This document shows, piece after piece, positions 3,945 through 63,657 of a DNA stretch of 64,000 nucleotides; position 1 is the stretch's first letter; each line of letters starts with the position of its first letter. Source of the stretch: Apostichopus japonicus (Eukaryota > Echinodermata > Holothuroidea > Aspidochirotida > Stichopodidae); the NCBI RefSeq assembly GCF_037975245.1, contig NC_092580.1, positions 25,278,501-25,342,500 on the forward strand, given 5' to 3'. The notes under the pieces are model-generated. The model made no database searches. It saw only the letters and a program-made list of their open reading frames with translations, and had not been told where the DNA came from. The position numbers and the translations under genes are program-made.

Positions 3945-4268
3945 CGACGATAAATATTGCAATGTTTTCTTGCGACGATGATTCGTCTGAATGAAGAACA
4001 GCTATTTTGTATATGCCTTCGTGCTTCACATCTGTCCTTTTTATGACCATTGAACCATCATCTTGTATGTCATACTCTCCTGAGTCATATCCACTTCCAC
4101 GTTTTTGTAAGGATTCCCCATCAAATCGCAAGGAAGATTTTCCTGCTCCGTTAAAATAACGCCTGACAGTAAGGAAGGATCATTCATACTTACAAGATAT
4201 AACAGCTGTAATATCGTAATGCAAGAAGTAGTTTTCCTTACAGACAAGTTTATTATTAGCGTCCGCCC
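3945..4268 (-). pseudogene. Isolated V-type immunoglobulin-like exon with one in-frame stop
   Basis: A 324-nt phase 1-1 exon between a TTTCCAG acceptor and a GTAAGT donor, the usual design of an Ig-domain exon. It reads through an Ig fold: first Cys in AVISCKYE, then the segment FLTVRRYFNGAG, a DGSMVIKRTDVKHEGIYKI strand in the position of the second-Cys strand, and a final ENIAIFIVG strand. A TGA at 4182-4180 falls exactly where a Trp would be expected after CKYE (TGG to TGA). Otherwise the frame is open for all 107 codons. The usual D-x-G-x-Y-x-C ends as HEGIYKI, so the second Cys is absent. No partner exons were recognised on this strand. It is best read as a decaying exon of a receptor related to the plus-strand gene at 7.2 kb, or as a single error in an otherwise live exon. 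Confidence 0.7.
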
Positions 4269-14756: not shown

Positions 14757-14831
<75 letters not shown>

Positions 14832-17800
14832 CGGCGGAGGCTGGAAGTTTTTTATCTGCAGTGTGGAAATGGGTGTGGGCAGTACGGAACTTAACAAATG
14901 TTTCGTCCCATTTCCTATTTATTTTCGTATCAAAGGGAACAGTCTATATGGTATCATAAACAGTCATATCAATACAAGCGTATTTTAAAATAGTGACAAA
15001 ATAAATTGACACTTATTCACACCTTGAAGGCTGACTACAATCGTGTCAATGGTAGAACTGTTCTTACACATGTTGGTGGCACACCAGTAAAAGGATCGAG
15101 TGATAGAAAAATCCTATCTTGTTAACAAACTTTATCTTTGTCAACGAAGGTGCATTTAAAACTTCCATAATAAAATGTTTAAAACGGCAAATGTAGTCAT
15201 GTTGCAAATTGTGTTTTACAAAAGGAAATCGAACTCTTTTTGTTATGATTACACCGTTATTTCTCTACTTTTTTATAATCCCTTCAAGGATAATCAAACG
15301 TTGGAACGGCTACCACCCGAAACAAAAGAGTCTTCTATATATGGTTTTCCCTCTGATATCTGGTCTTTTGGAATATTTTTATGGCAAATATTCTCTTTTG
15401 GTAAGAATTTCGTGAAAAAGGTGTTCATGAAAAGAAACCTATACGTTACGGATCCATTTTTATACATATAATTGAGAAAACTGTAAGTCGGATATTGGTT
15501 GGTCTCTTCCCCATAGCAGTTAAAAAACTACAAGTATTTTAAAATTTCAGGAGTAGTGACAAAGTATGTTATTAAAACAAGGTAAAATCGTTTTCTTTGT
15601 CTCATTAGTAGAGGCATTATATGTGTATGTATAGCTAAACAAAGACGATTATGATGACGCTGATGGCGCCTCCTACAATACCGGAAGACCTTGATAACCA
15701 AGATGATGAGTTTTAGTGAACTATGCAGTCATCCAAAAAGAATTTTGGTAGATGGAATATTACAAACCTTGCCGACATTAGCATAATTATTACCAAAAAC
15801 CTAATCAGTCTTTGAAATATTTTTTTTCAGGGGAAGTCCCTTGTCAACAAATATACTCAAGAAAAATAAGTGAAGATCAGAGGGAGTCAGTTTGCTTAAG
15901 TGAACCGCCCTTTTGTCCTCCAGGAATGTGAGTTACGATTCGCTTCAAAACTGTCAACCTTTTAAACTCTGTAAAAGTAAGTTGGCCTGACGTTTCAATC
16001 CTAGCAGGATCTTCTTCAAAGGCTAAATGACAAGTAACAGTAACAGAAGTGACAAAAACACGCACAGAATACAGACATGTTAATGAGAATGGTAAAAACA
16101 AAGAGATAGATGTAAGGGGATTAGCAGTCAAGGGATGGAAAGAAGAAAGAAAGAAACCAACAGGGGAAGAATACACTCTAAAAAACAAAGTGCTGAAAAC
16201 AGCACATAGAGTGCTATTTTACAGCACTTACCAAGAGCCCTATGAGGGATTGCACCCTAAGTGCTATAAACAGCGCTCTCAAAGGTGCTAACCATACAAG
16301 CACCTGAAAAGTGCTACAACAGTCCCGCACTTTAAGTGCTACCACCAGCACTGGAAAGAGCAAATATAGCACCTGTAAGTGCAAGTCCTAATTAATCTGT
16401 ATCACTTGCAAATATGGAATGCAAAGGGTAGGTCAAAACACAGCATCTCCTGACTGAAATAAAAGGGAACACATTTTTTTCTTTTCTTTCTTCCTTTTAT
16501 TGCTTCCTGTACTTGAGAAATAAAAATTCATAAGTTAGACTTATACCAAATAGTGTAGACGAATTAGCTTAAGTATCTCAGCTAAACCCTTTGGTTACTA
16601 TAAATTTAAGGCTGTTGACCAGAAGTGCTAGAGTATAAACATGCATAGTGTTCTAGCCTAACTTTATGTTTACATTTAGCCATGGATGTTACAATTTTCA
16701 AACATGATATTAATTTTGTGTATTAGTACTGAGTGATATTTACAGGAGATGGGACTATGCACCCCTAAAATTCAGTAAAATCCAGATTCCAACTGGAAAA
16801 GATCTCAGATTGGACGAATTAAATTTAAAAAAAAAAAATTTTGACCACCCAATGAGGCTTTGGTCCCATGGTCCCTTATTTTGGACAACACCTTCAAACC
16901 TATTCACTCCACTCTTTTAATTAAGTCAAATGAAAATAACACCAACTTGATCCCCAAATGGGGCAAAATTAAACTGAAACATAACACTGAATAACATCTA
17001 ACAGTCTGAATGAATGTTTTAAAACATGATAAAATTAGCAGTGACAACACCCAATCAAGACTAAGTTAGGTAAACCTACGCTCCCGAAGGGCGAGCAAGT
17101 ACCTGACATATTGTGAGTCATTAATTACTAATGAGTAATTTGTGTGAGTGGCTGTGGCTGAGATCTGGTGCAAGCAGTATCCCTCCCATTTTATAAGCCC
17201 AAACTTAAATCATCAACTGTACAACCTGAATAACTGGTCAAAACCTGAATTTATCCATCATAACCAGGTTCATCTGGAGATGATTTTAGAGATATATGTG
17301 GGTCTAAGTTGTGTAGTGTTCAGTTTTGTATTTGTTAACCCTGTGTTGTAGGCCTTATATTTCTGTTAATGTCAAAAATCCAACTACACTTTATATAATA
17401 GGTATATACTGAGCTCTAAAGGATTACTAGAATTGAAACACTGATCCCAAAGTAAAAACATACGGCATGTTTTTCTACTACAAAATGGCCTATGCAACTT
17501 AAGAAACGTTAAGAGAAATCTTGAAAGAGACTAATGCTAGTAATTAAAACGAATAAATTTTAAGACATGCTTGCAACAGACTTTCCTTAATGCTTTTTAA
17601 CTAAACTGTGAACAGTCTCTACTCCACATTTTGCAAGCTATCCTTATCTCCTTAACATGATTACTTATCTTTTGACCTGTTAGGGGTATGCCATACAACA
17701 CAGTTTGGATAAAGGTGTAGAAATCTGTGAGCTGCACCGCATACACTCTTAAAAAGTTGGGTAAAAATATTGACCAACTTTTAACCAACACTGGGTACAT

Positions 17801-37124: not shown

Positions 37125-37590
37125 AGGGGGCGATGTGGTCAAGTGGTTAAGGCAGTGGACTTGTGATCTAAGGATTGCAGGTTCGAGTCCTGGCCATTCG
37201 AGTCCTGATCATTGCGGTGTGTTCTTGGGCAAGGCACGTTATCTCCATCGCCTCTCTTCACCCAGGTGTACAGATGGGGACCCTGCAAGGTAACTTTTAA
37301 TTACAGTTGCATTCGCCGGTTTTGTGGCTGACCCCTATGGGAAGTCCCCCGGGGACAATTGGTTGTGGTGCACTGTGGTGCCCCAGGAGAGATTGATTTA
37401 ATTGTGCACACTTTGGTGTGTAGGTATGACAAGTTACCATTGACCAGGGGTTAAGTTATCAAGTCGTGTGAGGAGGCTTTAGTCTCATACAAGACTAAAC
37501 CTTTAACGTTCTGCGCCAGGAGTGTCAAGTTGACAGATATGGCGCGTTATACGTGGCCACTTTATTATTATTATTATTTTTATTACACAA
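37125..37590 (+). mobile_element. tRNA-derived SINE
   Basis: Pol III A box TGGTCAAGTGG (37136-37146) and B box GGTTCGAGTCC (37180-37190) form a tRNA-like head. A body with TTCTTGGGCAAGGCACGTTA follows, then a (TTA)n tail at 37560-37586. It lies about 350 bp upstream of the first intact FBXO31-like exon. Confidence 0.85.
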
Positions 37591-43563: not shown

Positions 43564-45783
43564 TTAAGTGTTCTTTCCAGCACAGATTTTAAGGGCATCC
43601 GCATATTCGTCTTTTGTAATCTGCAAAATGGATGTAGAACAAATGTAAAAACTATCCAAAAATAGTTCTGTTATTGTGCAAACGTTAACCAAAGTTTAGC
43701 GTTACGGGCATGGAAGTGAGATTTTGCAGTGGAATATTTTTCACATAGTACTTATCTGGATGCAGAATTTTTAAAGTACATGTGAAGTTACCTTTCCCTT
43801 TTTCTTGATACTGGTAAGGCTTTTCTTGTATGTGGACTCACTCATCTGAAAGAAATATTACTGGAATGAAACTTCTATATGAACGTTTCTAAGTAATATA
43901 GAAATGCAGTGTAATCAAAGTATGATTCTATATGCAATAGTCCAGTATTTCGTTTGAAACACGAATCAACTGGCTCTTAATATCAGTGAGCATACTGCAA
44001 TAAAGATGCCTTGAAAATTTTATGGATTATAAAGTGACATTTGTTTTCCCTTCAGCCTACAACCGTGAAAGGGGGCAACTATTGCAGAATTACTTAAAAA
44101 CATTGCTGTGGGTTATTGCCTCATATACTCCCTTACCTCACATGAGAAAGTCACAGATAAATGTACGGATCTTCATAGCAAGTCAAAGGGAGACCTTAAT
44201 GATACCCCTATGTCTCTGTGTTTATATTGTCTCAAAATACCAATACTGAGGCTTTATTTCATTACATCCACAAGAACGTCTCTACGACTAGGTTTTTCTG
44301 AGGGCTACAGTTAATATGGAACCCATCACATGAGAGTAGTTAATAGATTCGTTCATAACTAATCGACAGGAATTTTTATGAATGGTTCGTTTTATAGGAA
44401 TGGAAAGGAATCATTTACTTTAGTTCGGACAATTAATTAAACAATGAGAGAGTAGCAGTTAAATTGATTTGCAAACAAGTAAATCTAAACAAAATACCAG
44501 TGATGCATGAAAGCACTCTGCCAGCAGATCCATCGTATTCACTTTATCTAGCTGTAGAGAGAACAGAAATGCATATGATTAGTTTTTTGGCAAATCTTAC
44601 AAATAGGGTTGGGGCGGGGTGGCGGGGGGGGGGTGGGGGTTGCTCTAAGAAGAAGCCGGAAAGTTGTATACATAGCAAATTCTAATCCCTTCTGAAAGTA
44701 ATGCATTTGTGATCTCAGAAAGGAACGCGGGTAAAAGAATGAAGTCGAAACACTTGCCCATTAATTCTCTATACAGCCAGTCTGACATACAATTTGAACC
44801 GTATAGGTTGTAATTTTCTTAGAAGTAATTATACGTTTTTGCAGTGGTAAAATTCAGCAGTACAGACATTTGAAATCCTTCCGTTTTTATTATCTCAATA
44901 CATTACATGTATAGAGATATTGTAACAGTAAGTGGGACTCTCTCCTCTCTTAAAAATTTTTCAGCATCTTCATATAAAGTTCTTTTTCTCTGGAATTTTC
45001 AGAGAAAGCATATATCATATAGGCCAACAAAAGTTACTATTTTTTATTCGAGAATTTTATCTCATTCTATGACTTTTTCACCGATTTATGTCCAAATCGG
45101 GCCAATTTGGTCTGAAATACAGTTTAAACAACCCATTTTTGCACACGCTCTAAAACTTATGTTTTTTGAAAGAGAATAAAATAGAATTGTCTGTCAACAG
45201 TGGTATCGTCTAAGATAGGGTCCTATGTATTATATATTTTATTAACATTTTAAACTTTCATTTGTTGTTTACAGGTAGGTATTAATAAGAATTTTACCAG
45301 CTGTATATGACATTTTATGGCTTTTATTTGCTTTATTTGATGTTAAATGATTTTTCTTTCTTAAAACAACACTGAGCTGCCGCCCCTACTTTTAGTAAAA
45401 AGGTCTGTTTTTGATGATTAAGCCCCGCCCCCAAGTCTGTTTTGTAGCAGATTGGCTATGACTCATGGCAGCTACATGTTAGATATACGAAAATGGCTAC
45501 CCTCGCGACAAATTTTCTGTATTGTAGTTAGGTACGCCAGGTGTAGTGTATTGCATGCTTATTACATATACAAATTCTGTACTGCTGAATTCTACGTAGT
45601 GCATTTAATTTATATTAGGCCTTCGTTTTTGTAACATCCATTTAAGGATAGTACTGGTGTTCAGGTAGCTTTTCAGAGCAAGGGCCATGATAAGTTTGTT
45701 TGATTGCCCTTCATGTATTTTGTATAATTACGTATACACATTCTTTTATTTCTGAAGGCTACTTACTGTAGGCCTAGTGCATT

Positions 45784-45829
<46 letters not shown>

Positions 45830-48800
45830 CCTAGGCCCCCTAGGTCTATTAGGCTTTCAGTGATAGCCACATTAGCATTGTACTGGTGTTCAGACAGCTT
45901 TTCCTAGGAAGGACCAGGGTAAGTTTGTTGATGGGTAAGTATAAAAGAGGAGCCGGCAATAGCATCACAACTTTTATAAGACTATAAAAATTGTATAAGG
46001 TTATGTTTTATTTATAAGGATATAAGATGTATAAGGTTATAAGAAGTATGTTTAGCTTTCTTTTGAACCTGTAATGTTTGACATCAAATGTACAAAGAAT
46101 TAAAATAAAATAACAAAATGGAGAGGAACTGAGGTGGCTATTAGGGGAGGAGGAGGCCACCCATCACTTGCATATAAAAACTTGTAATCTTCTTTTACAT
46201 TATTTTTTCCAAGTCATAAATCAATGAAATCTTCATGTCAGAAAAATTGAGATGGAAAAACGTGGGTTGTTTTGATATCTAGAAGTGGACACAGTTTTGA
46301 TGGTAGTCACCACTACAGTCTACAGTAACATACAGTAGGTCAATAAGCCTAGCTCTCAAGGCAGGCATCAAGAATATGGTCGAGTTGTTCGCCTCTTCTA
46401 ATTTGGCCGTTGTCATTGACGTCAAACTATATGACCAGAAAGTCCAACAGAGACTGACCCAAGATGAAGGATACCACATAAAAAACAAGTTCTTAAATAT
46501 TCTATGACATTACTAAACCTTGCAACGTCGTTCTTTCGACTAACAGGCAATGAGCGCTAAAGGCAAGACTAGCAGGATAAAGTGTAACCTGCAGAGACTA
46601 TTCGTGGCAAAGTAGCAAAAATGCAAGTTATATATTTGTTGTACCATGATTGATATTGATAATTGTAGAGACAGAGCAAAGATTTGAAATTAGGTATCAA
46701 AATTAAAACTTCCAGTATTGAGATACTGCGTCATTGATGCTCTTGTTCTAATATTGTATTTGTGCACTAGTAAAAGCCTCCAAAGTCAGTAATTACAAAA
46801 GTAGAATATGTTTAACTCTTACCCAGCTTTGGTTTATCGAACACTCGGAAATATCTTCTAAATCTGTTTCGTTGATCTGTTGTTATGGTGGTAATAAAAT
46901 ATTCAGTTTCGTTGGCACAACTTTTGTTAGTAAAGTCATTACTTGAATTTTTCGCATCACATGCAGTTGGGTAAATTGTAAAGGGATATCTGTTTACAGC
47001 AAGAATACTTTATCATACTTTGTGATCACTCATTTTAACGTCAATTTACGTTCACACTCTGATAGAATTTTATGTCAATATCAATTTTATACGAGCAACC
47101 AAATATACCCAGCGTTAAATTAGCTGAAACCGAGCGAACTACCAAATAGTATTGGTTACTGCAGAGGAATGAAGTTTGATGGAGACAACAATTATCTATA
47201 AATAAGTTCAAAGAATTGCTAAATTACACACCTGTCCTTTCTGCTTGGAAGCTGTCAAGATTGCAATGCACTCATCTGTTTTCATCTTAGAAAATAAGAC
47301 AATTGTCAAAAAAGTCCAATGTATTGGTTGTATTTGTAATATGCATGTAAAATATGTGCATTGTAATGAGTTTATTGCCAACTCTTTCGATATGACACTC
47401 ACTTGAGTACGTAAAGAAATTTTAGCGCAAGTGGAGATGGGAAAGTATACAAGAAGGGTTATTCACCTCAAACATGCTTTAATTTTATTCGTCAAAATCG
47501 CTAGTGTGACGATTGGCACCTTCTATAAAGAAAGTTCGATCAAATATAACAGTCAAAATGAATTTAATTGTGTACGTTCAAGTGGCATGTTTTGTTTCCA
47601 TGGTAGTTGCGAACGAAAGAAGTTTTCGTAATAAAAGGAATGTAACTTACCCATTTGTTCTGTACATTTAGAAGGAGAACTCGCAGAAACTTTTTTCGTA
47701 AATCCTGTAAAATGTTACAATGTGTATATTGTTCGACAATTAAATTATTTTACATATTCTTCGTACGTAATCAAATTCTTTATAATGAACGAAGTTTAAG
47801 CAGAACTGAAAGTACCTAATGATTTTCGTCGCAAACATTGCAAAAGTTCCCGGGGGCTTACTTGTGACATCCAAATAATAAACTTCATATTTATATGACC
47901 AATTGAAAACACTTATTGTGTTGTAAGATGAACTATGAACATATGAAAGCCGTGGGCGTTGGAAGATATGATACACTATGCAATTGTTAATGAGAGGATT
48001 AGATTTCTTTTAAATTTCCGAATGTGCAAGAGTAGCATCCAAAAATACAGATATTTACCGGTTTTTTTATCTTATTGATGGCTTGGTCTCTGAAAATCAC
48101 TTGGTTGTCCTGTACAATTAGAGATATATTACTTCGATTATGTAAGACATTTTGAGTATAAGTTGAGTGAGTCACTAAACAATGAGAATAAAGTAAGATA
48201 GGAAGCTTCTGTAATATATTGATTGAACTAAATTTGGCAATTCCTGATAGAGTAGAGTCATGATAATTTATATCTGTATGTGTAACTTAGTTTGATCCCC
48301 GTTCAAGTTCTTCACAAATAATTTGCTCGGAACAAGCACACATTACAATTCCACATATTTAATATATTATTGTATAAATGGCAAAGCAAGATAGAAGAAC
48401 TTACTGCTGCCTTTGTAAGTATTTTATCAAAGAGGCTGCGTAGTGTGTTTTTTTGTTGCACCGTCACCTTTTAAAAAAAGAAAGAAAATAAAACGTATTC
48501 AAATTTTTCCTGCTTACTGTAACAATGTATTATGAACGTATCCGATAGACGTTTCGATCATAACAGGATCACATGCAGACTACAAACTAAAACAGCTAAA
48601 TACCATGCAAGTTAATTAGAACATTAAACAATGTATAAAGTGGAAGTGAGTCAATGGGCAGTGACATCAAATGACAGGAAATAGTCCTCCCGATATTAAC
48701 ACGAAGAGACTAATTACTATATGACTGCTTTATGCACGTTGTGGTCACTAGCTATAGCTATTATATGATAGAGACGTTCACTGAAGTAATATCAATAACG

Positions 48801-50706
48801 TTCGAAACTACTTACGTCTCCTATAATCCCCTGAATTGCTTGTAGAAAGTACGGATGGTGAATCTATGGAAAGGGTTAGAATGTGATCCAAGATTTTGCA
48901 TACCTCTGAAAAATTGTTATAAAATGTACTTTATATCGTTTGTCTGGAACACCAACTCATGCGAGTTCATACAGTGAATTATAATCATTTTGAAGAACCT
49001 TCAAACATAACCTAATATAATATTGTAAAATACCAATTAAATAAATTCAAGAACGAATTAAAATCATGGATTAAAAGCAATCACTTGATCTCGATTACTT
49101 AATCACTTTACAATGTTGAATGAATAAATGCAGCGATTAAATAATAATTGGTAAATTGCTAACATATGTTGCTGTTTTATATGAAAATTGATATTTCAAT
49201 CGCTACATTGAAGTAATCAACACAACTGGTCAAAGTTACATTTAGATATCATAGAGGTAAACTAACATCAAATCTTACAGAATGCACTATATTATCAATA
49301 TAACAAATCTACTGTCCATAAATTGATCCAAATCGAATGCTATCAATATGGGCTGTCCATTATTTTAATACCTAAAACAGTTTAATTTGCATTTTAATGC
49401 CGGTGAAGATTTAGGCCTTTGCTCTCATTCTCAGAGAGGAGTAAGAGTCCAGCATATTTGAGTTGAAGTACAAGTTCCATTCAACACAATGTGGACTTTA
49501 CTACAATTATGACAACACTTTAATTTTTACTTTGATGTGTTCACTTTCTCTAATACCTTTTCTTTGCCAACTCCTAGGAAACCAATTTGACGAAACACTT
49601 CATCAACGTTCATCTGTAAAATAATTAATACAAGAACGTGTTATATAAATGAACGTCGACGTCTTGGATTATAAAAGAAGAACACGAAAGATACCTGACA
49701 ATAACAATGTCAATGCAATAATCGGACAAAACAATGACAAACCATACACGACATTGAAAATAAACAAAATGAAAACTTACAAGATTTTTCAATATAAACT
49801 GGATAACTGTATCAGCTATTTCTACCCCTGGATACTGAAAGCAGAAAAATATGATACACTGTTCCTGTATTTCTGATATCAAAATGCTGCATTTACTGTT
49901 GCATTAAATAAGACAAAATCATTAAATGCAAGATTAGCAAATTATTGATATAGTAAAAAGACATTTCGTTAAAATAAACAATTATTTTGTACAGGTACTT
50001 GGCAAGCCGCCGATTTGAAGAATTAGTTTCATTTGCCAGTCTGCAATATTGAAGAAGTCATTCTACCAAATTTTTGATACGGTTATGGAGTGCATAGTGA
50101 CAACGCTTTACAGCAAATTTGGTGCACAGTTTTCCGCCTGATGTTTAGTAGACACAGTGCCTTGAATGAACAAGAATCAAAATCTTGAAATCGTATTACC
50201 GAATGATAGAAAAATTAAATAGCTTACTTTCGACTTGCTAACTTCTTTCAGTGTTGCCAAAATGCCCTTGGCAGTGATCTGTTCACATGGATAAAGATGA
50301 AGTTAGTTATCAGATTATACAGTCATATTTAATTATGGAAAGGAAAACCTAGTAAACATAATAACAACGATGGTAGTTGGCAGTACAGAGCGGATTGTCA
50401 CAAAGATCCGAAATTGACATTTATTGTGAATGTCATATTTCCTTAGTATCGAAATTAAGTTGACCCTATTTTACTTTGATCGGAACTTCACTACTTAAAA
50501 GTATTCGCTGTCCGCATCAGAAAACACATTCAAAATGGAGCTTAATCAATTGTCATTATACAGTCATAAGAATGTATTGGATCCGATTTATGAAATCAGA
50601 ACTCAGTAGCAACTTGCTATATGAAAAGTTGTACCACAGGGATAATACCAACCTTCTTCTCATCGAGGAGGAACTTTGTACCTGCAACGAACTCTTCTAC
50701 AGTTAT
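43564..50706 (-). CDS. Array exons 30-41 (3' end)
   Basis: 50706-50653 ITVEEFVAGTKFLLDEKK; 50278-50228 ITAKGILATLKEVSKSK (51 nt); 49834-49781 YPGVEIADTVIQFILKNL; 49613-49557 MNVDEVFRQIGFLGVGKEK (57 nt); 48863-48816 IHHPYFLQAIQGIIGD (48 nt); 48467-48405 starts VTVQQKNTLRSLFDK (63 nt); 48109-48059 DNQVIFRDQAINKIKKP (51 nt); 47704-47651 DLRKKFLRVLLLNVQNKW; 47285-47232 MKTDECIAILTASKQKGQ; 46876-46823 INETDLEDISECSINQSW; 43845-43792 MSESTYKKSLTSIKKKGK; 43620-43564 ITKDEYADALKICAGKNT plus TAA. Less uniform in length than the 5' part but still strictly phase 0-0. The 48863 and 48467 exons are the least certain. Confidence 0.78.
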
Positions 50707-53700
50707 CTGCGTAATAAAATTCAAAGTAGGACGTTTCAATAACTGTTTTAGTGATGTGAAAAGTAAATATATATTGAAAGGAAGACTATTTGAAAGCATC
50801 GGCATATAATACATTTTATTATCATTGTAATACGAAATATTTATTGACGCTTTTATGTTTGTTTTAATTTGGTTATAACAACATAGCCTATCGATGTTTA
50901 CTAGATTATTACTAGTATGTGTTACTACAAGTAGCAATGACAGCAACAGAATTTAATGTTAATTTTAACTGAAGTAATAACGTTTGAACAAGCTTCATAA
51001 AGCAAAGCAAAACATGGTTATCATTTTATGATTAACAAATTCTGCCTTCAAATGTGACCAATTCAGACGAGACCAAAGTTATACACAGAGGCAAACATCT
51101 CTTACTTCATGTCAATATTTGTTCACCAAATAAAATAAAGAGAGTGCCCAATATATTTTAAATCACTTATTTGGTACTAACTTGATGCAGTGAAAATATT
51201 TCTGCCAGAAGTGAGAGAGATGTTTCGGGGGGCAGCTGCATAAAAACAAAGAACAAAAGATGATTTTATGTGGCAAAGAAATGTAAAGTTTGAGACCACG
51301 ATGGGTTCCCTGAAATGCCCAAGCTTGAACACCATTATAGGAAATGTTGGGCTGCATTTAATATAAAGAACCTGATGTAAAAATAAATAACTTCAAGAAG
51401 CCATTTTTTAACATGTTGGATTAAATATAAATTTAAGTGCAATGCCCTGAAAGTTTACAGTAGTTCGAAAGTTGAGTTCTCACTTATTTAAAAGTAAAAA
51501 TCATACTTGAATGAAATATAATTGATCTGAGATGAATGTCTCTTACTTTCTTCACAGCGAGTCTGATCGCCTTTGTTCTGTCAGAAATAGTAAACTGTAG
51601 GCCAAAATCAAATCAACAGTAATATATTTGTGTTAATGAAGGAGAAATCATAGGAGTCGCGAGAATAACGGAAAGCTCATAATTGGTTTGGATTTCAAAT
51701 AAGATACAAATGTGTAGATTTCAACGCCAATTTACTTCAATTCAAAAAAGAGAATTCAAAACTGAAATTTATCCTTTACTGACCAAATCACTCTCTTCAC
51801 ATCCAGCGAGAAACTTCGTAACGGCAATCAATTGCTATAAATGCAGAAATGAAAACACGGTTGGATGTGATTTTAATTTTAATGGGGAGATTTAATAACT
51901 TTCAATTGTGTAGCAGTATCCACTATATGACAGACTTAATCAACTTGAAGAACAAGTTTTGACAAGCGATGTCAACTATTGCCAAATCCTGGTGAAGTTT
52001 AAGTCACTCCTTTATACAAACCTCTTCTGCAATGTCTTCTTTGTCGATATATTCTTCCATATAATTTGAGGGCGATTCCTATGAAAGTTATAAAGTACAG
52101 GCGAAATATGAATTAGTTTTTCATCAAGTAAATAGTTTCAGTTTCACATATTTTATGTTAAACATAAAATGTTGCAATTGTTTTCTGCCTCAATGAGATT
52201 AATCGATCACCTTACAATTTAAACATCAGTATCAGTACATAAGATAACATACGTTGGACAGCAACGGGTTCACAGACCATATGTTAACAAAGAGACGGGC
52301 TGTAATCGACGTAAATCTTGTAGGTATTATAATGATTAAAATAACATCTACGCCATCCTAAGTAGGCAACATTTTTATGTGAACTATTTGTATGATCAGT
52401 CAGTCGGACGTCAGTATAAAATATAACTTACCTTGTACTTTTTGTGGAATTTCTTTAAAACCTCCTGAAACTTGTCGTTTGTACCCTATTAGAAAAGAAA
52501 GGCCGACACAGTGAAGATTAGTTCCATCTACGTATCTACTATTAATTAAATGTACTTTGGAATAGCGATATGTCTAATATTGAACATTCGCCAGAACCAT
52601 GTGACCTACGCTATATATGTTCATGAAGTACTTGATTGAATATTTTTCTTCAAACTGTTCCTAGAACATAGTTATGCCAATAAGTGAAAAGGTAGTGCTG
52701 ACTTATGGCAATTAACTTACCTTGTCTGAAGTTATCTCGGTACAAAGTGCTTTGAATGCCTCTCTAAAGTCGATCTATTATGGAAGAGAATCGTTATAGT
52801 TGATAGGTGCAGAAGAAGGAAAAACAACAAACACACACCTAAAATACAATGTCATGCAATGGAAATCATTGTTCTTAACATGAGATTCGTTGCCATAATA
52901 TCCTGGGTAGTAATGAAAACATAACGATAAAACATACTAACCTTCTTCTTTTCTTCCTGTTGTTCAATTTGCTTTGAATATATTTCATTCGATATCTAAA
53001 TAAACAAAGCAATGAAATGGTTAAGCTTTCTTGCCCTCTGCCCATTCATATGGCAATTGCCAATATGTGAAAACACCGGTGTATGTAATTAGTTTAATAA
53101 GCTAATTAGCTTAACACAGTAAATATTATTTGACAGTTTATATCAGATTAAGAACAGTACATAACTCACCAGCTTTGCATCCACACACTTCTTAAGTTCC
53201 GTGTTGTATTCAGTAATATCGAGCTGAATGGAATCACGGAAATGTAATAAATTCTCGATAAATGCGAATTAGATCATACCATTGTGTGCCGAATATTAGT
53301 TCTTCATATAGGGGTGCAACAAATTGAACGGTTTTATATATATTTGGGTTTGCACTGTTTACACCTCAGATGATATGTAAACAATTGTTCCTGGATTAAG
53401 TTTGCAGAATAATACTGCACGACTTTGCTCTATTGTAAAGTGTTAGTCTGTACTCTGTTTAGTCCAAATAAATCGCTTTGTAAACTTTATGACTCCCTTG
53501 AACGTATAAGTGCTTATAATAGATTTCAGGAAGAGTAACTCTGAACTCAATGAACATTCAGTGTCGTAAAACTTGTTTCAATATTTAAATATCTCGAACA
53601 TTGGATAAGCAACTAGCTTGGTATTTTGATTATGGAGTACAATTTGGAGTACAAATATGTAATATTGATATACATATCTTCACTATATTTTGTTAGTCTG

Positions 53701-56700
53701 TGGTTGATTCCATTTTGTTGTCTGTTGGGGTGGACATGTGGGCAGTGCATGGTATGAAAAGTATTGAGACTGAGTTATTCAACAAGTTAGAAGTGTATCA
53801 ATCTAGACGTATTTAAGAGAATACCAGCCTACGGTAGACCAATTATATCAAGGAATTGATTTAATTATTTTCTACGAGTCAATACATATATGGACAACTG
53901 ATATGGATCATGATCAAGTAAAAATCCCTCGCAGTGGATGAATGATACTACTGGCTGCAACAAACCGTTATAAATCATCTTTATACAGCGGTGTAGTAAG
54001 AACATTAATAATTCCGATTAATTATTCGATTTTCGGTATTTAATTTCTACAAAAAAAAATCAATGAGTTGCCTTTTTCCTTTTGTATCATAGCCAGTTTG
54101 ATTTTGCTTACTCATAATTTTGATACATACACCTCGATTTTTATTGCGCGCATGTAAAAAACCTTAAACATTACGCTTAAAACATTTATGAGTTATTCTG
54201 AACCTGCAAGAAAGTATGATTACGTCACAACGCAGCTTTAATACCCGCCCATATCACCGTTAAAGAAAACACTATAGCAACTCCATACCTTTGCTTTTTG
54301 TAACAAGTCCTCCAAAAATTTACAAAGTGCTTCTTCAGTCATCTACAAGAATGTTCATAAACAAACAGTGGTTACTAAATGAAAGATGATATACGAATAT
54401 AAAAATATAATTTTTAAGTACATGAAAACATTCCTCATTTTGAATAAAACCATATTCAGCGTGAAGTATTTAATAAACCCAATCAGGTGGATTTAACGAG
54501 TACCTGTTTAGGGTATTATACAAATACTGACGGAAGTATACCGTAAATTACCAGGCCCATTAGGTACACCATCAAGTCGATAACCGGGCTTTCACAAAAG
54601 CGGGGTGGGTTCAGGGATGCTTGATTTACCATTATCACTGTTTTACAGGGGAAATTATCCAATCCACCAATGTAACCGAATAACCCAAAATAAAAGCTTT
54701 TCTGAGGTTTTTAGGTTAAACTGATGGCCATCCCATAGTTTACTTGAAGCATACAGATGAAAATAATAATATACTACGCATATCATATATCGTATACGAT
54801 GAACGATTGTGTAAAACTGAGCATACTTTGAGCGACCAATTTAAGTAACGCTCTCTAAAAATCGGCCCTGCTCTCTACTGCAATTACCAGATTATGTGAA
54901 ACAATTGCGGACATGCCATTTCTGCTACTAAAGTTTCACAAATGTGAAACGAAAGTTGTTAGTTTTCGACATTTTAATGGTGTAATCGTGGAAAATTGCA
55001 CTATATCAAGAATTGTTAGCGTATTTTCTTTTCTTTCATGATACCCTTTCAGTGTATTGTGTTCCGATCCTTACTAAGTGTAAACGCGGTTAGTCGATCT
55101 AAGGTTTGGTATTGCTGCAACATGGCTTCTTCCAACGAAGCTGGTCATGTGACCACTTGACCAATACTTTACTATACAAACATAGAACATTCAATAAATA
55201 AAAACACATCACGGCTTCGGATATTGGTTGAAAAAATGTAACATGATCAAGAATTCAAGATCACGTTGTCACAGTTTCTACAAACTGTAATATATCAGGT
55301 TCTGAAGTATTTTGCAATATTTGAAAATGGTACCATTTTAGAGTTCATGCTGTCATAGATCCATGATAATTAATAACGTGCCTGCTACTCACCAAATTTT
55401 CCTTTCGACAGCCGTGAAGTTTCCCAATTGAATCTTGCAAATCCAACTATACAAGGTTTCAGGAAAAGAATCGAAATTGTAGCAGAATTGCTCTATATAA
55501 TGCAAACTAAATTTTCAATGTAGAGAAGCACGCAAAGAATCATATGAAATAATAAAAAACAAAGTGTGTATCGAATAGGACAGCACAGCAAACAAATCAC
55601 TGTGACAATTTAAGTGCAAACCAAGATTTCATTATTAGTAATATTTATGTGGCAACATTAGTAAACAATTTCCAATCAGATGGTCATGTTAAATGACGTT
55701 TTCACCTACGACTTGACAGAATATCAGAGCTTGCTTCAAGAAACTGGTTGCGTTTGACTACTGCATTCCAAATAATTATATATATTTTTCAATAGAGCAA
55801 TCCATAGTGTGAAAGCAAATCAATTTGTGCCTCTTACAACATCAATTAATAGATAAGTCACTTGGTCACGTTAGCAGTAATGAAAAAAAAATGAATATTC
55901 CCTAATACACAAGAAGGCTATAGGCTAGGTTGGTTGGCATGAAACTATGAAATCGTGTACGGTATATGTTAATGTTTGCAAAATAACATGTTTTAGCAAA
56001 TTTCCATTTGCTAATAACAGTAGTTTATAAACTTTATATTCACGTGTATATATTTATATGAAGTTAGTAGAGGGGATAAAATAGGAAGAGAAATTATTGG
56101 AGGGCAGAAAACTTGGAACCAATATATAAATTCGAGCTTATTAGCTGAATGGTAGAAAGAAATTCAAATGTATCCTGTCTTCATCTGATACTATTATTTT
56201 CTTTCTCACTAAAACTAAAGTAATTAATCAATAAGGTTTATCCTGAATAGAAAAATACTTACAATTTCGTTCTTTTCTTCATTGTTCAATTCTTGAACGA
56301 AGTCGTTGATAGAAATCTTGATGGAAAAGTGAGTGAACAAAAAAGGCACGGATAAGAAGAATAGATTATCATATTTATTGCATTGTTAGTTTATTATTTT
56401 CATTAAAATACGTAATTATTTTATATTTAGGCAATGTATCTCACTTTACCGACACAATTATTGATGAATTAAAACCGACAAACCTTTCCGTTCTTTAACA
56501 AATCAAACAGTTCATTCCAATAATCGTTGACGTTGATCTGAAAGAGAGAGATAGAAATACACAAGAAGAGTTTTAACGAAAAGTTGAAGTAGAAACCAAT
56601 CAGCAGAGAAACCAATCAGCTTAACAATACACACGTAGAAATTTTAAATAGTGACAAACAACTCCTGTGAAACAATGATATGAACTACTTTTCATTGTCA

Positions 56701-59700
56701 CAGAGGATAACTCTTCATCTTTTCGGCAGACATTAATTGTTATTATTTTTAATCAGTGTTGCTGTCATGAATGACACAGGGGTTGTGATTTAGGAGCGAT
56801 GAAACTACAAAGGTTCCAACATAAGTCATAAAAACACACGATATTCCCCCCGGCGCTCCTGGCGCTCAATTGACATCGAATATGCTTTAACATACCTTCT
56901 GTTTCTGCAGAAAGGCATGGTAGACCTCCATCAGAACTTCTCGTGATATCTGAAGAAATAAATTACGCATTATGAGCAAATCTTAACATTACGATTTATT
57001 TTTAGGAAATATTAATACACATTTTGTTCCTTCGTGTGTGTCCACAGTGTTCGTCAAAATTTTATATGCAAAGGGCAAATGACTATCACATATGAACAAT
57101 TCTGAATATAGCTTATGGATATTTTGCTGTACACTGAAAATAGCTTTAAACTTCACAATGAATATCACAGTTTGTAACGTGGTATGAAATACTATATTGG
57201 AATCGACCAATTTGGATATGAGTAACCTATAAGTAAAATAAGCGACATACGTCACACATGACAAAGAACACATCATTTAAATTTGGAATGGTTAGCTCAT
57301 ATTGCTCAATTGCCTAATTGCAGCACAACAACTTACTTTTTTGTCCACAAACTTGGTCTGTAGTTGCCCAAAGACAGTGCTTTGATCAATCTGTTTGTGC
57401 AAAGGACATGATTAGTGCAAAACCTGAGTCAAATATAGTTTATAAGAAATGTTTATAAAATGGAGCGAATACAGTCGAAAAGGTTGAGAAATTGAACGAA
57501 ACATAAAGGAAGTGAGTAATATTAAAGTAGATTCGGGATTCGAGACTCTTTGAAAGCTATTTCTATTACACACCATTCCTTAAATTTCCTATGTCGAATA
57601 TGACGCAGCTATACATATGTTCATTAGCATGTCGAACTAAAAATGACTGTTGCATGCACCTGACTTTTGAATTTCAAAAACTGTCGGACAATTTAAAAAC
57701 ATGGATTATCGTTTGTAATAAAATATTTTGAAAACCCTTATTATAATTTATACATTTATCTTAAGTCATTTTCCCAACACTGATACAGCGTTTGAGAAAC
57801 TACAGAAATGTCGTCGATATTCAATTATTTTTTTACACATATTAGGAAAAAATAATCTGAGATGATACTCACCAAGTCTTTCAGGAAACAGTTTTGTAGT
57901 TCGGCGATGAAGCCTTGGATATCCACCTGCAAAAGTTCAGGGAAACAAACAGTAAATATATAATAGTAAAACAAAATATTTGCAAATGTTGCGTTAAAGT
58001 CAGATACACATGGAAAGACTTTTGATATATTGCTAATGGATACATAACTGTGGGTTCCGGATAGCAAACTCTGTGACCGTAATACTAAGGGATATATGTG
58101 TTGTATTACAAACATTATGTATGGGTTGGGTGTTAGCTCAGTGGTTAACACCGGTGCCTTTCAATCATAAGGTCCCGGTTTCTAGCCACTCCAAGATTAA
58201 TGTATGTCGTCCAGTTACAGAGTTGTTGAAAATTGACAATTCATAATTATGGACGTAAATTATGTATCTAATAGACTGACTTCGGTCAGCTTGCGAGTTC
58301 CTGCTTGCAGGAGGATCTTAAATACATACATCCACCCATACATACATACACACAATTAAGGTTAGATGTTTACGTAAATAGCTATGTTCGTTTGTCTCTC
58401 ATCACTGAAAGGAAGGCAGGTTATTAGGGTGATGCATAAACTCGGCAGAGATCTTTATTTCTAAATATAAACACTCAAGCCTAAAAGTAGCAAATGGACC
58501 CATGTTCAGATGACTATAAACATCTAAAGATTTAATTGAATATCCAAGATTTATTTTATCATTAAATTATTTGTTTTTACTGAATCATTTTGCTATCACA
58601 ATAACCATGAAAATTCCATAATCACTTCCAAAAGTTTCCTTTGCATTAACAAACATATAATAAAAGTATATTATTGTCACTTTATTTGATGACACAAAAT
58701 ATATTCAAATTTAGCAGTAGTAGCAGTCTGTCACATGATCTAAAATAAGCAAACAACAGTTTGACGAACGCAAACGTATATACATAAAATAATCATACCA
58801 GTCCCTGTCCTTTTGAAAACAACGAAAGGGGTACACATTTGGTCAGATTACGATCATAATGACTTTTCACAAGTGAATGGCTACCTTTAATTACATTTTA
58901 TTAGTATAACGAGAAACGTACTCATTACCTTACTACTGGTAAGGAGCTGGTTAAGCTTTTCACAAAAAAAGGCTGGAGATATCTGCAAAAGTTCGGACAA
59001 TAGTTTTCTTTGTAAGGCACTTTGATGAAATGTAACAAAAATTAAACGGTAATTTTAATTGATGACATGTTTACATTACTGTTATAATTTAAAAAAAAAA
59101 AATTTATTGTTTGATGCGTTTGTAAGATAAAATAACCAAGGTGGTAAGTAGTCAGGTAACACTAAAACTGAAATATGAGTTCCTTTAGTCATGCCCTATG
59201 GATTTACAAATTTCCAATGCATGATTTACGCCTTTAAACGTGGAACACTAATTGAATTTACTTACGGACTTGTGATGTAGACAATTTTCCAATTCTGTGA
59301 AGTAGCAATGGATATCAATCTGTGGAAATTAACACAGAACATGTTAACATTACTTTCAAGTATTAGACAAATGAATAACATTAAAAACATGATAAAATTT
59401 TAAACATTTGTATGAGAGGTTAACCTCTTACCTTTTTTGTTTCCAAGAGTGAGTCGATTTGTGCTACGAAAGTCTTTTCAGGTATCTGTGTGGACATGTA
59501 TATTTAGCTTTGGATAAATCATTGTGTTTTGCATTCATTTCAAACTTTTCATTTGATCAATAGATCTAAAACGGCATAATTATGTTTCTTTGGTCTTACT
59601 TTACGCTGCCTTTTTCAGCCCTCTCCCACCCACAAAAATGGTTAATAGGAACAGACGTAAAAATGAGTTCTAGAGCAAAGGAACAATCTACTTATCAGAA

Positions 59701-62700
59701 AAGACTGCCGTTTATCAACAAACGTTCTCAAGCCATTACAGATGATATTGCATGGTTAGTTTATACTCTGTCCGTCTGCCGCGTGTAGGACAATTTTATA
59801 TCAGTAAACTGAGGTGCATTTGCTAGATGGATACTAAAAGTTCAATGAAACAGCAAAATATATATGACGATATGTCTTGCAGAAATATGTTAAGATATTT
59901 TCATTATGTCCTGCTCCACAAACTCCAGTAACACGATACACAAGTATGAGCAAATACTACTACAATTGTTCAGTAAAACTACGTTATTTCTATTAAATGG
60001 TGTGTAGCTTACCACACTTTGTTGTAAGCAGTTCCATAATTCCTCGATGTACTCTTGTGTGGTAATCTGTGTGTAGATACAGAACAGGGAACATTTGAGT
60101 CTTCATTTTCAATCTGTTTCAAGTTTATAGGTGATGAATTTATTGAAATTTTGTAAAGTGTCCTATTACCTTTGCTGTTGAAGACTTTACTTACCACGCT
60201 TTTGCTGCAAAGATTCTGTAGCCTCTTCAAAAAGGCAGGTTCATCCGTCTACACGAATGAGATGAAATTGATAACACATGTAAGTCGAATTACAAAGGAC
60301 TAGCAACAGTATTTAACACAGCTGTAAACTGGAAGTCTACTGACTGACTCCTCACTGTCTGACTGACCCACTCACTGATTCACTACCTCGCTAATTGAAT
60401 CACTCCCTCACTGAGTGACTCTTCACTGACTGACATACTCACTGACTGAGTACAACTCTGAATGACTCACTGACCAACCGACAAACCGGTCGTCGGTTGT
60501 AAACCTTCAGTGCCACAAGTCCTGAAATCGACATATGACGAATTACTTGGCATATGTCAGTTTCTTGTGAACCCATTTAACAGAATCATAACATGGGATT
60601 GGAAAATTATGTTACCAGTCATTTCAAAGCGCTCTTGATTGGAAGAAACTGTTATATGTGCAAAAATTCAATTACCGTCTGCTAGTTTCTCGCACTCTCA
60701 TTTGATGACTTTGTCAGATATCTACACACCACGGTCGTGATTGACAGAAAAATAGCTATATGTCAAAGAAATCGTCATATATTGAATTGAATCCTCCAAT
60801 GAGAATGTGGGAAACTGTAAGATGCCAATTTAATTCAATGAATGTTTATTTCTTGAATATATAATTTTTTTTTTTAATGTAGAGCGTTACAACTAAACAC
60901 ACCTACCGATCTACCCTATCACTCACTGACTCTGGCCTATTTATTTCCTATATGACTATGGATACTCACAAACTTTTGCTGCAGAAAATTGCGTAATGTT
61001 GATACCAGAAACTCTTTTTGTATCTGAGAATGTAAAATATTCAAACCACCATACTGTGTCAATGTGCTGTGACATGCGTAAAGCATTACGATTGCATCCA
61101 ATCGTAAGAAAACGAAATGGTAGTGAATAAATACCTTCTATAACAATAACTTAAGTCATCGAAATTTTTCTAACAATAATAAAAACAGCATCTTAAGAAC
61201 TTACTACAAGATCTTTCAATTCATGACAATTTTTTTTAAGTAGAACGGTCTCGTCATCATGTCACTCTCATTAAAAGGAAACATACACAAACACATGCAG
61301 AAGTGAAGTACTGAAGTACCAGGTTGTTTTAATCATAAAATATAAATGTACTTTTTGTTTCGGACATGAACCAAATAGTAAATATGTTAAAAAAAACGTA
61401 TTTGGCAACTTCTATCGTCATAATGTTTCATCAGGTGATAAAGTAATGTACGTAGTGCCTTGAATTTAACGTGCCAAGCCTACTGGCTAACGAAAATCTC
61501 ACCAATGTGCTTTCCAAACACGTTTCCAGTGTATCCAAGTAGTCACCGGAGTTAATCTGTAAACAAGTGAATGTTTTGTTATTAATTTGCAAGACAATAC
61601 TCAATCAGAATAAGCAATCAAGATACATATTTATTTAATATCTAGACATTCAAGTACAAGGTAATATAAACATTTCAACAACAATAACACAAATATATAT
61701 ATACCAAATGATCCGACACGAGTCCGTCCATTTTCTTGCAAAATATGTCCATTGAAATCTGTAAGAAAATAAATCCAGTTCAACACTTATATAAGACATT
61801 AAAAAAGGGCATTGAGTTTATACATTGCTTCTACTTGTTACACAAAGAAGAGTTTTATGCAGTTGCAACAGTTGTCAGTAAAACAGTCAAATATACTAAC
61901 CAGGTTTGTTTTGACGCAGTTACGATATTCTTCGATTAAGTCATCCTTCGAAAGCTGTAAGAAAACGCCATAGATCTAACTTAATCAAATCGTATGTGTA
62001 TGAATCTTTACAGTCAGCTAGTGATAAGAATTTGTTTTTAACCAGAGTTATAAATATATGAACTTACAGTAACGTAGATATTGGTTGTGTTTGGCTCTTA
62101 ACATCAGCGTGGTTGCAAATCTTATTTAGGATAAAAACATGCTCTTTTATCATTGATAATTAAGCACAACAACTAGTAAGTTTTTTGTGTGATTTGTACC
62201 TTGTTGTTGCTTAGAAGATATTTCAACTGGTCAAAGAATCCTTCTTTCGTTATCTGTAAAAAAAGAAGAAGAAAAAAAGTCAGAAGCGTTGTTGGGTGCC
62301 GATTGGTAATATCATTGTATATACTCAGACGTATTGTCGAATCATCTCCGTGCTCGGCCATTATTTCCCCTCTAACAGCCATGTAGTTGTATTCTTTCTT
62401 CACTGTGCTTTATTGTAAAAATAAGTTGAAAAATGTCTATATTATTTGGTTCACATGGCAAAATTGATGACATTAAATCACGCTTTAGTGATATCGACTG
62501 AAACTGAATGTTTTGGTGCGATCGCATTGTTATGTAATATGGATCATATTGGAATCTGAAGCCAACTTACCAAACTTGCTTTGACTAATTTATGAAAAAA
62601 ATCCATAAGCTTCTCTCGTGACATCTGTTGAAAGAAATAATTTGTATCGAAGAGATTTGTGTTATTTGAAAAGTTCGAAAAAGAAAATATAATAAAAAAT

Positions 62701-63657
62701 ATGATGGAGAGGAATATAGGCTATGTATTTTTCCAAAGGAATAAAACCACAAAAGGCATTGATAAGTTAGAAATAGTTTAGATATCGGTAGAATTTTCTA
62801 GAAAAGATGTAGTTCAGTTCTTGTTCTAGATTGGGTTCTTAGATTCACAGATTTGATAGTTCGTTTTCTGTTTTTTGTCTTATTGTCATACGCTATTATC
62901 CATTTAATAGTCTACCCGTTTGTATCACTGGTATCATTAGTTAACTACTTTGTAGCAAGCAAAATAGTGAATTGCTCATATATAAAGAATACATGTGATC
63001 ACATCTCTTCAATTACATGCAAAATATTAGTTTTCCTTACATACATCTAAAGATTAGAATCTTTGTCATTATATTTGTTTTGTCATTGCAGATTTATTTG
63101 AACCAAGGTTTGTAACAAAATATTAAACTTAATTGACTGATTATGAGTTTGTTTGTATATTTCACCTGTTTAGATGTGAAAAGCAAGGTTAGTTCTCCCA
63201 GGAAGGCATCCTCTTGTATCTGAAATATTATCGAATAGACCATGTGTGTTTCATTCGGAACGTATAGTTTTTATCGGATGGTAAAGCATTTCCAGCCAGT
63301 CTTTTTTAAAATATCAGGAAAGAATAACTTCATTTGACAAATAAAATGTAAATAAAAAGCAGCTGATTTTGGGTCAGAATTGAAAAGAAAATACAAATAT
63401 ATGAGACTGACCATAGCATGTCATACAATAGTTCTTACAACTTACCAGTTTGTTTTTGAAACAGTTTTGCAACTGGTCAAGCAGATTTTCAAGTTGAAGC
63501 TACATAAAGAGAAACCGAAAAGTTTATTTTATTATATTAGTTTGTATAAATGCGTCATAAACACCTCAAAGATTTAAACTGTTTGCTAACCTTCTATACT
63601 TACCAGACGTTTTTCCAATAAATTATTCAGCTTTTTACAAAACTGTTCTTCGGAAAT
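43564..63657 (-). CDS. Array gene: at least 41 phase-0 mini-exons, mostly 54 nt, each one 18-residue helix
   Basis: A gene of unknown family read right to left, its 5' end beyond the window. I count 41 consecutive exons, each flanked by AG acceptor and GT donor except one with a mutated acceptor (61258). All lengths are multiples of three: 33 internal exons of exactly 54 nt, the rest 48, 51, 57 or 63 nt, and a last exon of 18 codons plus TAA (43566-43564). All start and end in phase 0, giving about 737 residues so far. Consensus is I-(S/T/D/N)-x-(E/D)-(E/D)-(F/Y/L)-x-x-x-L-x-x-(C/L)-(L/F)-x-x-K-x. Neither signal peptide nor membrane helix was seen in this part. I know no named family with this design; collagen exons share the 54-nt length but not the sequence. 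The last exon lies 0.9 kb from, and convergent with, the FBXO31-like gene. Confidence 0.85.
43846..46822. other. Longest intron of the array gene
   Basis: 3-kb intron between the third-last... and penultimate exons (46823 to 43845). Holds a G-rich run at 44607-44640, a (TA)n tract, and two related segments (near 45643-45720 and 45877-45940) sharing TACTGGTGTTCAG(G/A)(T/C)AGC and TTTTC. No further 54-nt exon was recognised in it. Confidence 0.5.
45787..45827. repeat. (TA)n microsatellite
   Basis: About 20 TA units flanked by GTAGGCCTAG and TAGGCCTAGG words. Confidence 0.93.
51182..55446 (-). CDS. Array exons 21-29
   Basis: 55446-55393 LDLQDSIGKLHGCRKENL; 54342-54289 MTEEALCKFLEDLLQKAK; 53223-53170 LDITEYNTELKKCVDAKL; 52995-52942 ISNEIYSKQIEQQEEKKK; 52774-52721 IDFREAFKALCTEITSDK; 52485-52432 GTNDKFQEVLKKFHKKYK; 52078-52022 ESPSNYMEEYIDKEDIAEE (57 nt, GTTTGT donor); 51594-51547 FTISDRTKAIRLAVKK (48 nt); 51235-51182 LPPETSLSLLAEIFSLHQ. 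Exons 21-23 are a third Cys13-Cys7-Cys13 triplet. From exon 24 on, cysteines almost vanish, Lys/Glu content rises, and the consensus loosens. Confidence 0.82.
56263..60248 (-). CDS. Array exons 11-20
   Basis: 60248-60195 TDEPAFLKRLQNLCSKSV; 60066-60013 ITTQEYIEELWNCLQQSV; 59485-59432 IPEKTFVAQIDSLLETKK; 59319-59266 IDIHCYFTELENCLHHKS; 58982-58929 ISPAFFCEKLNQLLTSSK; 57926-57873 VDIQGFIAELQNCFLKDL; 57390-57337 IDQSTVFGQLQTKFVDKK; 56949-56896 ISREVLMEVYHAFLQKQK; 56537-56484 INVNDYWNELFDLLKNGK; 56316-56263 ISINDFVQELNNEEKNEI. Exons 14-16 repeat the Cys13-Cys7-Cys13 triplet, and exons 17-19 resemble exons 3-5. Exon 19 uses a GTTTGT donor. A SINE sits in the intron between exons 15 and 16. Confidence 0.85.
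58123..58351 (+). mobile_element. tRNA-derived SINE in an array-gene intron
   Basis: tRNA-like head with A box TAGCTCAGTGG (58134-58144) and a degenerate B box GGTTTCTAGCC (near 58177). A short unrelated body and a CATACATACATAC-type tail (58325-58351) follow. Its family is distinct from the SINE at 37125. Confidence 0.75.
60335..60490. repeat. Degenerate CACTGACT/ACTGACTG tandem repeat
   Basis: Irregular repetition of (T)CACTGACTGA-like octamers over about 150 bp, in the intron between array exons 10 and 11. Confidence 0.8.
60970..63657 (-). CDS. Array exons 1-10 (5'-most in window)
   Basis: Exon spans with products: 63657-63604 ISEEQFCKKLNNLLEKRL; 63499-63446 LQLENLLDQLQNCFKNKL; 63219-63166 IQEDAFLGELTLLFTSKQ; 62624-62571 MSREKLMDFFHKLVKASL; 62253-62200 ITKEGFFDQLKYLLSNNK; 61954-61901 LSKDDLIEEYRNCVKTNL; 61758-61705 ISMDIFCKKMDGLVSDHL; 61556-61503 INSGDYLDTLETCLESTL; 61258-61205 DDETVLLKKNCHELKDLV (open, but the acceptor reads AT); 61023-60970 IQKEFLVSTLRNFLQQKF. 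Introns are 100-550 nt. Exons 6-8 form a Cys13-Cys7-Cys13 triplet. Confidence 0.85.

Follow-up and report, generated by a model that had tools for sequence, protein, structure and literature searches.

A minus-strand row of very short exons in the genome of the sea cucumber Apostichopus japonicus appears to encode the cytoplasmic tail of an immunoglobulin (Ig)-type transmembrane (TM) receptor, and to belong to a gene family. The row was found in a 64,000-nucleotide (nt) stretch of contig NC_092580.1 (positions 25,278,501 to 25,342,500; hereafter the window) and was followed across the assembly searched here (671.6 Mb in 35 contigs, the contig with the array gene being labelled C20). We consider it likely that a single gene specifies a type I Ig receptor whose tail of helical units serves as an alpha-solenoid scaffold binding cytoplasmic partners. 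Such a protein would begin with a signal peptide, Ig-like exons and one TM helix, continue through a short juxtamembrane segment and a K/E-rich stretch, and end in a cytoplasmic tail made mostly of a chain of helix-like units, in most cases one 18-residue unit per exon, arranged as A/B pairs of 36 residues. The scaffold would engage its cytoplasmic partners upon recognition of a microbe or a cell by the Ig part. The array would occupy the place where receptors of this genome with related Ig exons carry a NACHT exon, and it would have grown by tandem duplication of an exon together with its intron. Since phase 0 holds throughout, exons can be gained or lost with the frame intact. The sequence basis for this proposal comprises the exons and their phases, their conservation in a paralog, the Ig domains, the related loci and the tandem exon copies at one of these, L026; from it we infer splicing of all parts into one mRNA, the topology in the membrane, the fold as a solenoid, and the roles as a scaffold and in immunity.

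A mini-exon array that continues beyond the window

Within the window, 44 candidate minus-strand units run from position 63657 to position 43564, all read as phase 0-0, with the stop codon of the array in the last of them at 43564. After comparison with the paralog described below, 42 of the 44 stand and 33 of these are exactly 54 nt long. The initial annotation had proposed at least 41 phase-0 mini-exons, 33 of them of exactly 54 nt; both counts are borne out, and the array is larger than was claimed. When scored with a profile trained on 24 similar units, the region contains 25 open AG-54-GT units of at least 6 bits, compared with 0 in 40 first-order Markov resamples; 24 of these 25 are training units, and 21 of the 24 still reach 6 bits when left out of the training in turn. 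The motif that the annotation had described as common to all units is well shared by the first 24 window units only (mean pair score 11.2, against -1.1 for the last 20 listed and -3.1 for shuffled peptides); the other 18 supported exons are real but mostly diverged.

We then applied the 24-unit profile to flanking sequence totalling 79.5 kb and to the remainder of the window. Among the held-out upstream units (63.7-85 kb in window numbering), 37 of 60 open AG-54-GT units score at least 3 bits, while none of 82 does so on the minus strand outside the interval 43-93 kb, nor any of 143 on the plus strand. Five hundred column-permuted profiles yield a mean of 0.3 units and a maximum of 7, versus the 37 found with the real profile. 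Motif-like units reach 20.5 kb past the window edge. The receptor part had gone unnoticed because it lies outside the window.

A splice-chain model produced the long exon row, with exons added by eye kept; 61 exons of the model itself had served to train its splice scores, and the paralog is the independent check. Without two rejected units, the model has 107 exons and encodes 2,345 residues over 48,986 bases (C20:25,322,064-25,371,049), with introns of 83-2,271 nt (median 316.5 nt). Its 101 supported mini-exons measure 27-90 nt, 76 of them 54 nt, and all are multiples of three read as phase 0-0, which supports the frame-neutral design of mostly one 18-residue unit per exon that had been suggested. 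The upstream exons join in frame and are open, with phases of 1-1 for the Ig exons, 1 to 0 across the juxtamembrane exon, which acts as a phase adaptor, and 0-0 onward to the stop. Three Pfam families exceed their cut-offs in the receptor part: Ig_3 (34.8 vs 30 bits), V-set (33.6 vs 26 bits) and C2-set_2 (26.4 vs 21 bits). The TM helix is predicted at about residues 462-485, and the tail after the juxtamembrane exon comprises 1,831 residues, of which 275 are K or R and 308 are D or E. Two exons past the membrane exon carry E-x-x-x-L-I/L motifs, which we take to be candidate acidic dileucine sorting signals from their resemblance to these.

The tandem paralog is located on the same strand at a distance of ~105 kb. 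It matches 99 of the 103 mini-exons at equal length and in the same order; those left out are exon 7, which is in another register in the paralog, exon 19, which apparently has one extra codon there, and the two rejected units. Both splice dinucleotides are retained in 98 of the 99 compared exons, the remaining one being the last exon. Across the 99 pairs, 241 of 5,355 nt differ and 1,633 of 1,785 residues are identical. The initial annotation had named a ratio of nonsynonymous to silent divergence (dN/dS) near 1 in related species as an argument against a coding array; between these paralogous exons, rather than in another species, the ratio is 0.51 (dN 0.039, dS 0.077; bootstrap 0.37-0.72, largest of 300 replicates 0.95). 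In the 76 exons compared among exons 8-84, dS (0.0945) is the same as the divergence of the introns (0.0951 across 20,895 aligned positions, with one long intron skipped). Taken together, this evidence shows that the array evolves as a protein. Divergence of the introns is patchy, at 0.00-0.02 after exons 11-17 and mostly 0.08-0.18 after exons 20-48, a pattern that would fit gene conversion.

The receptor part is less uniform. In this pair, protein identity drops to 46% for the first Ig exon and 43% for the second, with dS of 2.8 and 1.3, near saturation, while it is 89% in the third Ig exon, 88% in the TM exon, 78% in the juxtamembrane exon and 91% in the tail. The distal Ig part has diverged and the rest is alike, indicating that the former is old or exchanged and the latter recent. 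Such a mosaic may be the pattern expected of recognition receptors.

Two candidate exons and one prediction were removed from the model. In the paralog, the unit at 52610-52660 (-) is interrupted by an insertion of 1 nt; that at 47469-47522 (-) is without a frame-neutral donor and has the same frame-breaking donor in both copies; both are possibly dead or rarely used exons. A gene-finder exon located within the second Ig exon was false and was dropped.

The helix-like unit and the receptor family

The 63 core 18-residue units share a pattern: position 1 is I, L, M or V in 60, position 2 is S, T, D or N in 47, position 6 is F, Y or L in 54 and position 10 is L in 46, and neither G nor P occurs at positions 6, 7, 11, 14 or 18. 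Their hydropathy peaks at 90-100 degrees per residue, the helical period. Acidic residues after an S, T or D at position 2, together with hydrophobic residues at positions 1 and 6, resemble a helix N-cap with a hydrophobic staple. Two classes of unit can be distinguished, A (I-S-E-E-x-F-L-x-Q-L-x-x-L-L-x-x-K-K) and B (I/L-D-I-x-E-Y-x-x-E-L-R-N-C-L-K-K-x-L), which were learnt from the same units with their order ignored. Adjacent units switch between A and B in 47 of 60 pairs, a count that 20,000 shuffles approach with at most 45. A 13-exon super-repeat is superimposed on this alternation, with a mean score of 22.2 at lag 13 and of 6-15 at other lags up to 44.

Several known repeats and exon rows resemble the array in part. 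Fibrillar collagen genes also contain long rows of frame-neutral 54-nt exons; here, however, Gly-X-Y is lacking, no regular Gly occurs in the 63 core units, and the units look amphipathic and helical. TPR, PPR and HEAT proteins are built from tandem paired short helices of about 34-40 residues, whereas the array has one helix-like unit per exon, a consensus of its own and no profile match above cut-off. In Dscam, mutually exclusive exon choice diversifies the outer part of the receptor; the exon row of the array receptor lies in the inner part, and exon choice there is hypothetical. Dscam and other splice-diversified Ig receptors contain many related tandem exons (PMC13428168; PMC4835542). Schistosome micro-exon genes have a coding region composed mostly of very small symmetrical exons, which permits splice variants (PMC4350168). 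The likeness is that most of the coding sequence lies in very small symmetrical exons, here 101 of 27-90 nt. In contrast, schistosomes belong to a different phylum, the present gene is an Ig-type receptor with its mini-exons in the tail, these are mutually similar units, mostly of 54 nt, with one predicted helix each, and splice variants are hypothetical.

The first Ig exon has at least 150 matches in the genome (150 scored of 332 candidates), the weakest of which, at E 3e-4, need not belong to the same family. Among the 150 scored, 90 lie on C16 and 12 on C20. Array-like units are present on the strand of the gene at six of ten other C20 Ig loci sampled, two of them thin (3/10 and 2/10 units), and are absent from the opposite strands of all ten samples. 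Counted as open units scoring at least 0, three 10-kb samples gave 12/22, 24/36 and 8/23, the second being the tandem paralog, and seven 5-kb samples gave 6/7, 3/10, 0/6, 2/10, 0/7, 0/7 and 0/8. L026, one of the related loci, has a row of five exons spaced by 300-630 nt that are identical at 44-49 of 54 bases and have similar introns, which points to tandem exon duplication.

A second kind of inner half accompanies related Ig exons elsewhere in the genome. NACHT has at least 106 genome hits (106 scored of 487 candidates), with none on C20 among those scored. Within the 25 kb searched, 25 of the 150 Ig matches (on C16, C12 and C7) are followed on their own strand by a NACHT match at 4-21 kb, with none upstream and none on the opposite strand. 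These 25 pairs suggest a large Ig-NACHT receptor family; in our reading the array is one more type of inner half, joined to an outer half of related type. The sea cucumber phagocytosis receptor AjNLRC4 has Ig domains outside, a TM segment at 483-503 and NACHT inside (PMC8699970). By that description it resembles the array receptor in its outer Ig-like domains and in the place of its TM segment; Ig exons related to those of the array receptor precede NACHT exons in the present genome, but the cytoplasmic half of the array receptor is the mini-exon array. Pfam detects no NACHT in the tail.

Alternative explanations

Several results weigh against a single receptor gene with a helical scaffold. 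That receptor and array share one mRNA is suggested by phase, order and the paralog. Read-through of the adaptor exon meets a stop after 7 codons, making a short-tailed form possible. The signal peptide and the single membrane helix were recognised by eye from the translation, and the signal-peptide exon has no credible partner in the paralog. In the diverged C-flank of the array, intron divergence is 0.044 and dS 0.022, so the equality of the two does not hold there; dN/dS is 0.63 on 19 changes in the C-flank alone and 0.9 on 19 changes in Ig exon 3. Array-like units are absent from four of the seven 5-kb C20 samples, although short samples can miss an array, and from one 10-kb sample each of C16 and C9. 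None of the Pfam matches listed for the real tail reaches its cut-off, the best being RST (20.1 of 22.7 bits), TMP_3 (20.9 of 41) and Vps23_core (19.9 of 26.8). An artificial consensus is needed for XRCC4, Vps23_core and ACDC to pass theirs, and this consensus matches many unrelated helical families. In the PDB the window units have no match and the artificial consensus reaches E 0.18 or worse. The earlier remark that no named family was known to have this repeat agrees with these Pfam and PDB searches. A protein collection gave no match at E <= 0.001 for the 44 spliced units, the Ig/TM part or upstream-tail residues 100-840; the Ig/TM part being unmatched as well, this collection probably lacks relatives and absence from it says little. 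We found no relative in any other species. In listings of the literature on the repeat, on mini-exons and exons of 54 nt, and on the Ig, NACHT and kinase families of sea cucumbers, nothing describes this gene, and the words 'immunoglobulin', 'exons', 'repeat protein', 'tyrosine kinase' and 'splicing' are absent from the main text of a Holothuria glaberrima preprint.

The alternative that survives best, although we judge it unlikely, is that subsets of the frame-neutral exons are skipped and that one locus gives rise to many cytoplasmic arms. All 101 supported mini-exons would allow this, and known micro-exon genes use the same device (PMC4350168). However, exon number and order are unchanged between the paralogs, with both splice dinucleotides retained in 98 of 99 exons, which is what normal use of most exons would produce. 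Most donors of the 61 motif-like units are strong (median 8.8 bits, with a matrix trained on the same sites), and phase 0 may simply follow from growth by exon duplication. A splice-built intracellular repertoire, in which each cell would have its own helical tail and distal Ig exons would be exchanged between tandem genes, is a rather improbable extension of this idea.

Similarly doubtful is a mechanical role, in which the tail would be a helical spring or spacer tying the receptor to the cytoskeleton, with length mattering over sequence. The tail is indeed very long, repetitive and charged, and AjNLRC4, another sea cucumber Ig receptor, acts through actin (PMC8699970); yet the A/B register, the 13-exon order and the specific conserved positions exceed the needs of pure length. 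We give little credence to the array being a separate gene or a decaying relic beside an Ig receptor. The readable stop in the adaptor exon would favour this, but the phase adaptor itself, the conserved exon order of the paralog, the purifying selection acting on the array and the array-like units downstream of Ig exons at six of ten other C20 loci argue for one gene. A degenerate EF-hand chain binding calcium is scarcely credible: the unit start I-(S/T/D)-x-E-E-F resembles the end of an EF-hand loop with its exiting helix and weak matches occur (E 0.07-0.12), but all fall below the gathering cut-off, the would-be D-x-D-x-D-G positions are K/L-rich, and EF-hands appear neither in the 9 families listed with the upstream array nor in the best 25 of the 74 that the consensus matched.

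Coordinates, neighbouring features and implications

Table 1 Exons of the array gene, in window numbering. Mini-exons are numbered as in the model; numbers 90 and 104 have no row.
Feature	Position	Strand	Remarks
Signal-peptide-like exon	92549-92486	-	read by eye
Ig-like exons, three	91547-91242; 90428-89802; 89323-88985	-	
Transmembrane exon	88734-88603	-	read by eye
Juxtamembrane (phase-adaptor) exon	87647-87574	-	
Mini-exon 66	63604..63657	-	class A; ISEEQFCKKLNNLLEKRL
Mini-exon 67	63446..63499	-	class B
Mini-exon 68	63166..63219	-	class A
Mini-exon 69	62571..62624	-	class A
Mini-exon 70	62200..62253	-	class A
Mini-exon 71	61901..61954	-	class B
Mini-exon 72	61705..61758	-	class A
Mini-exon 73	61503..61556	-	class B
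Mini-exon 74	60970..61023	-	class B
Mini-exon 75	60195..60248	-	class A
Mini-exon 76	60013..60066	-	class B
Mini-exon 77	59432..59485	-	class A
Mini-exon 78	59266..59319	-	class B
Mini-exon 79	58929..58982	-	class A
Mini-exon 80	57873..57926	-	class B
Mini-exon 81	57337..57390	-	class A
Mini-exon 82	56896..56949	-	class A
Mini-exon 83	56484..56537	-	class A
Mini-exon 84	56263..56316	-	class B
Mini-exon 85	55393..55446	-	class B
Mini-exon 86	54289..54342	-	class A
Mini-exon 87	53170..53223	-	class B
Mini-exon 88	52942..52995	-	class A
Mini-exon 89	52721..52774	-	class A; last unit of core array
Mini-exon 91	52432..52485	-	54 nt; diverged C-flank unit
Mini-exon 92	52022..52078	-	57 nt; C-flank
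Mini-exon 93	51784..51834	-	51 nt; C-flank
Mini-exon 94	51547..51594	-	48 nt; C-flank
Mini-exon 95	51182..51235	-	54 nt; C-flank
Mini-exon 96	50653..50706	-	54 nt; C-flank, motif-like; ITVEEFVAGTKFLLDEKK
Mini-exon 97	50228..50278	-	51 nt; C-flank
Mini-exon 98	49781..49834	-	54 nt; C-flank
Mini-exon 99	49557..49613	-	57 nt; C-flank
Mini-exon 100	48816..48863	-	48 nt; C-flank
Mini-exon 101	48405..48467	-	63 nt; C-flank
Mini-exon 102	48059..48109	-	51 nt; C-flank
Mini-exon 103	47651..47704	-	54 nt; C-flank
Mini-exon 105	47232..47285	-	54 nt; C-flank
Mini-exon 106	46823..46876	-	54 nt; C-flank
Mini-exon 107	44498..44551	-	54 nt; C-flank
Mini-exon 108	43792..43845	-	54 nt; C-flank
Last exon 109	43564..43620	-	57 nt including TAA stop; stop kept in paralog

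Elsewhere in the window, an Ig exon at 3946-4254 (-) shares 45% identity with the first Ig exon of the receptor and contains an internal TGA; no array units of at least 3 bits occur within 20 kb downstream, and it is probably a gene fragment. On the plus strand, Ig exons at 9370-9726 and 10830-11171 score above the Pfam cut-off and one at 7651-7986 below it, and exons of tyrosine-kinase type at 14170-15468 follow them in a row, with PK_Tyr_Ser-Thr exceeding its cut-off. The row (7651-15468) is read as one gene, apparently for an Ig receptor kinase beside the array gene; none of the 150 scored Ig matches corresponds to the Ig exons of this row. Reading frames of a non-LTR (long terminal repeat) retroelement with RVT_1 and zf-RVT occupy 64-1923 (+). 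The sole Rfam match at gathering level is a tRNA at 37133-37197 (+) (31.7 bits vs 29), which ARAGORN does not call and which may be a tRNA-derived repeat. Outside the window, the mitochondrial COX1 of the assembly gives a sensible translation under the echinoderm code, AAA standing for Asn at conserved sites. Further COX1 matches with in-frame TGA lie on a 31-kb contig (C29:13728-31219), perhaps mitochondrial sequence that was assembled separately.

If the proposed gene is correct, it would be a repeat protein caught growing at the gene level, with one helix-like unit per exon duplicated along with its intron. It would also place two inner halves within one receptor family, in which related Ig exons precede NACHT at some loci and a mini-exon array at others. 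Genome annotation may readily split or miss such genes, as expected from very short exons. Were the splice-built repertoire true, one Ig receptor locus could provide very many signalling or adaptor-binding forms, with diversity inside rather than outside the membrane. The array would make testable both the birth of helical repeats and the gain of new inner halves by immune-type receptors in animals without antibodies.

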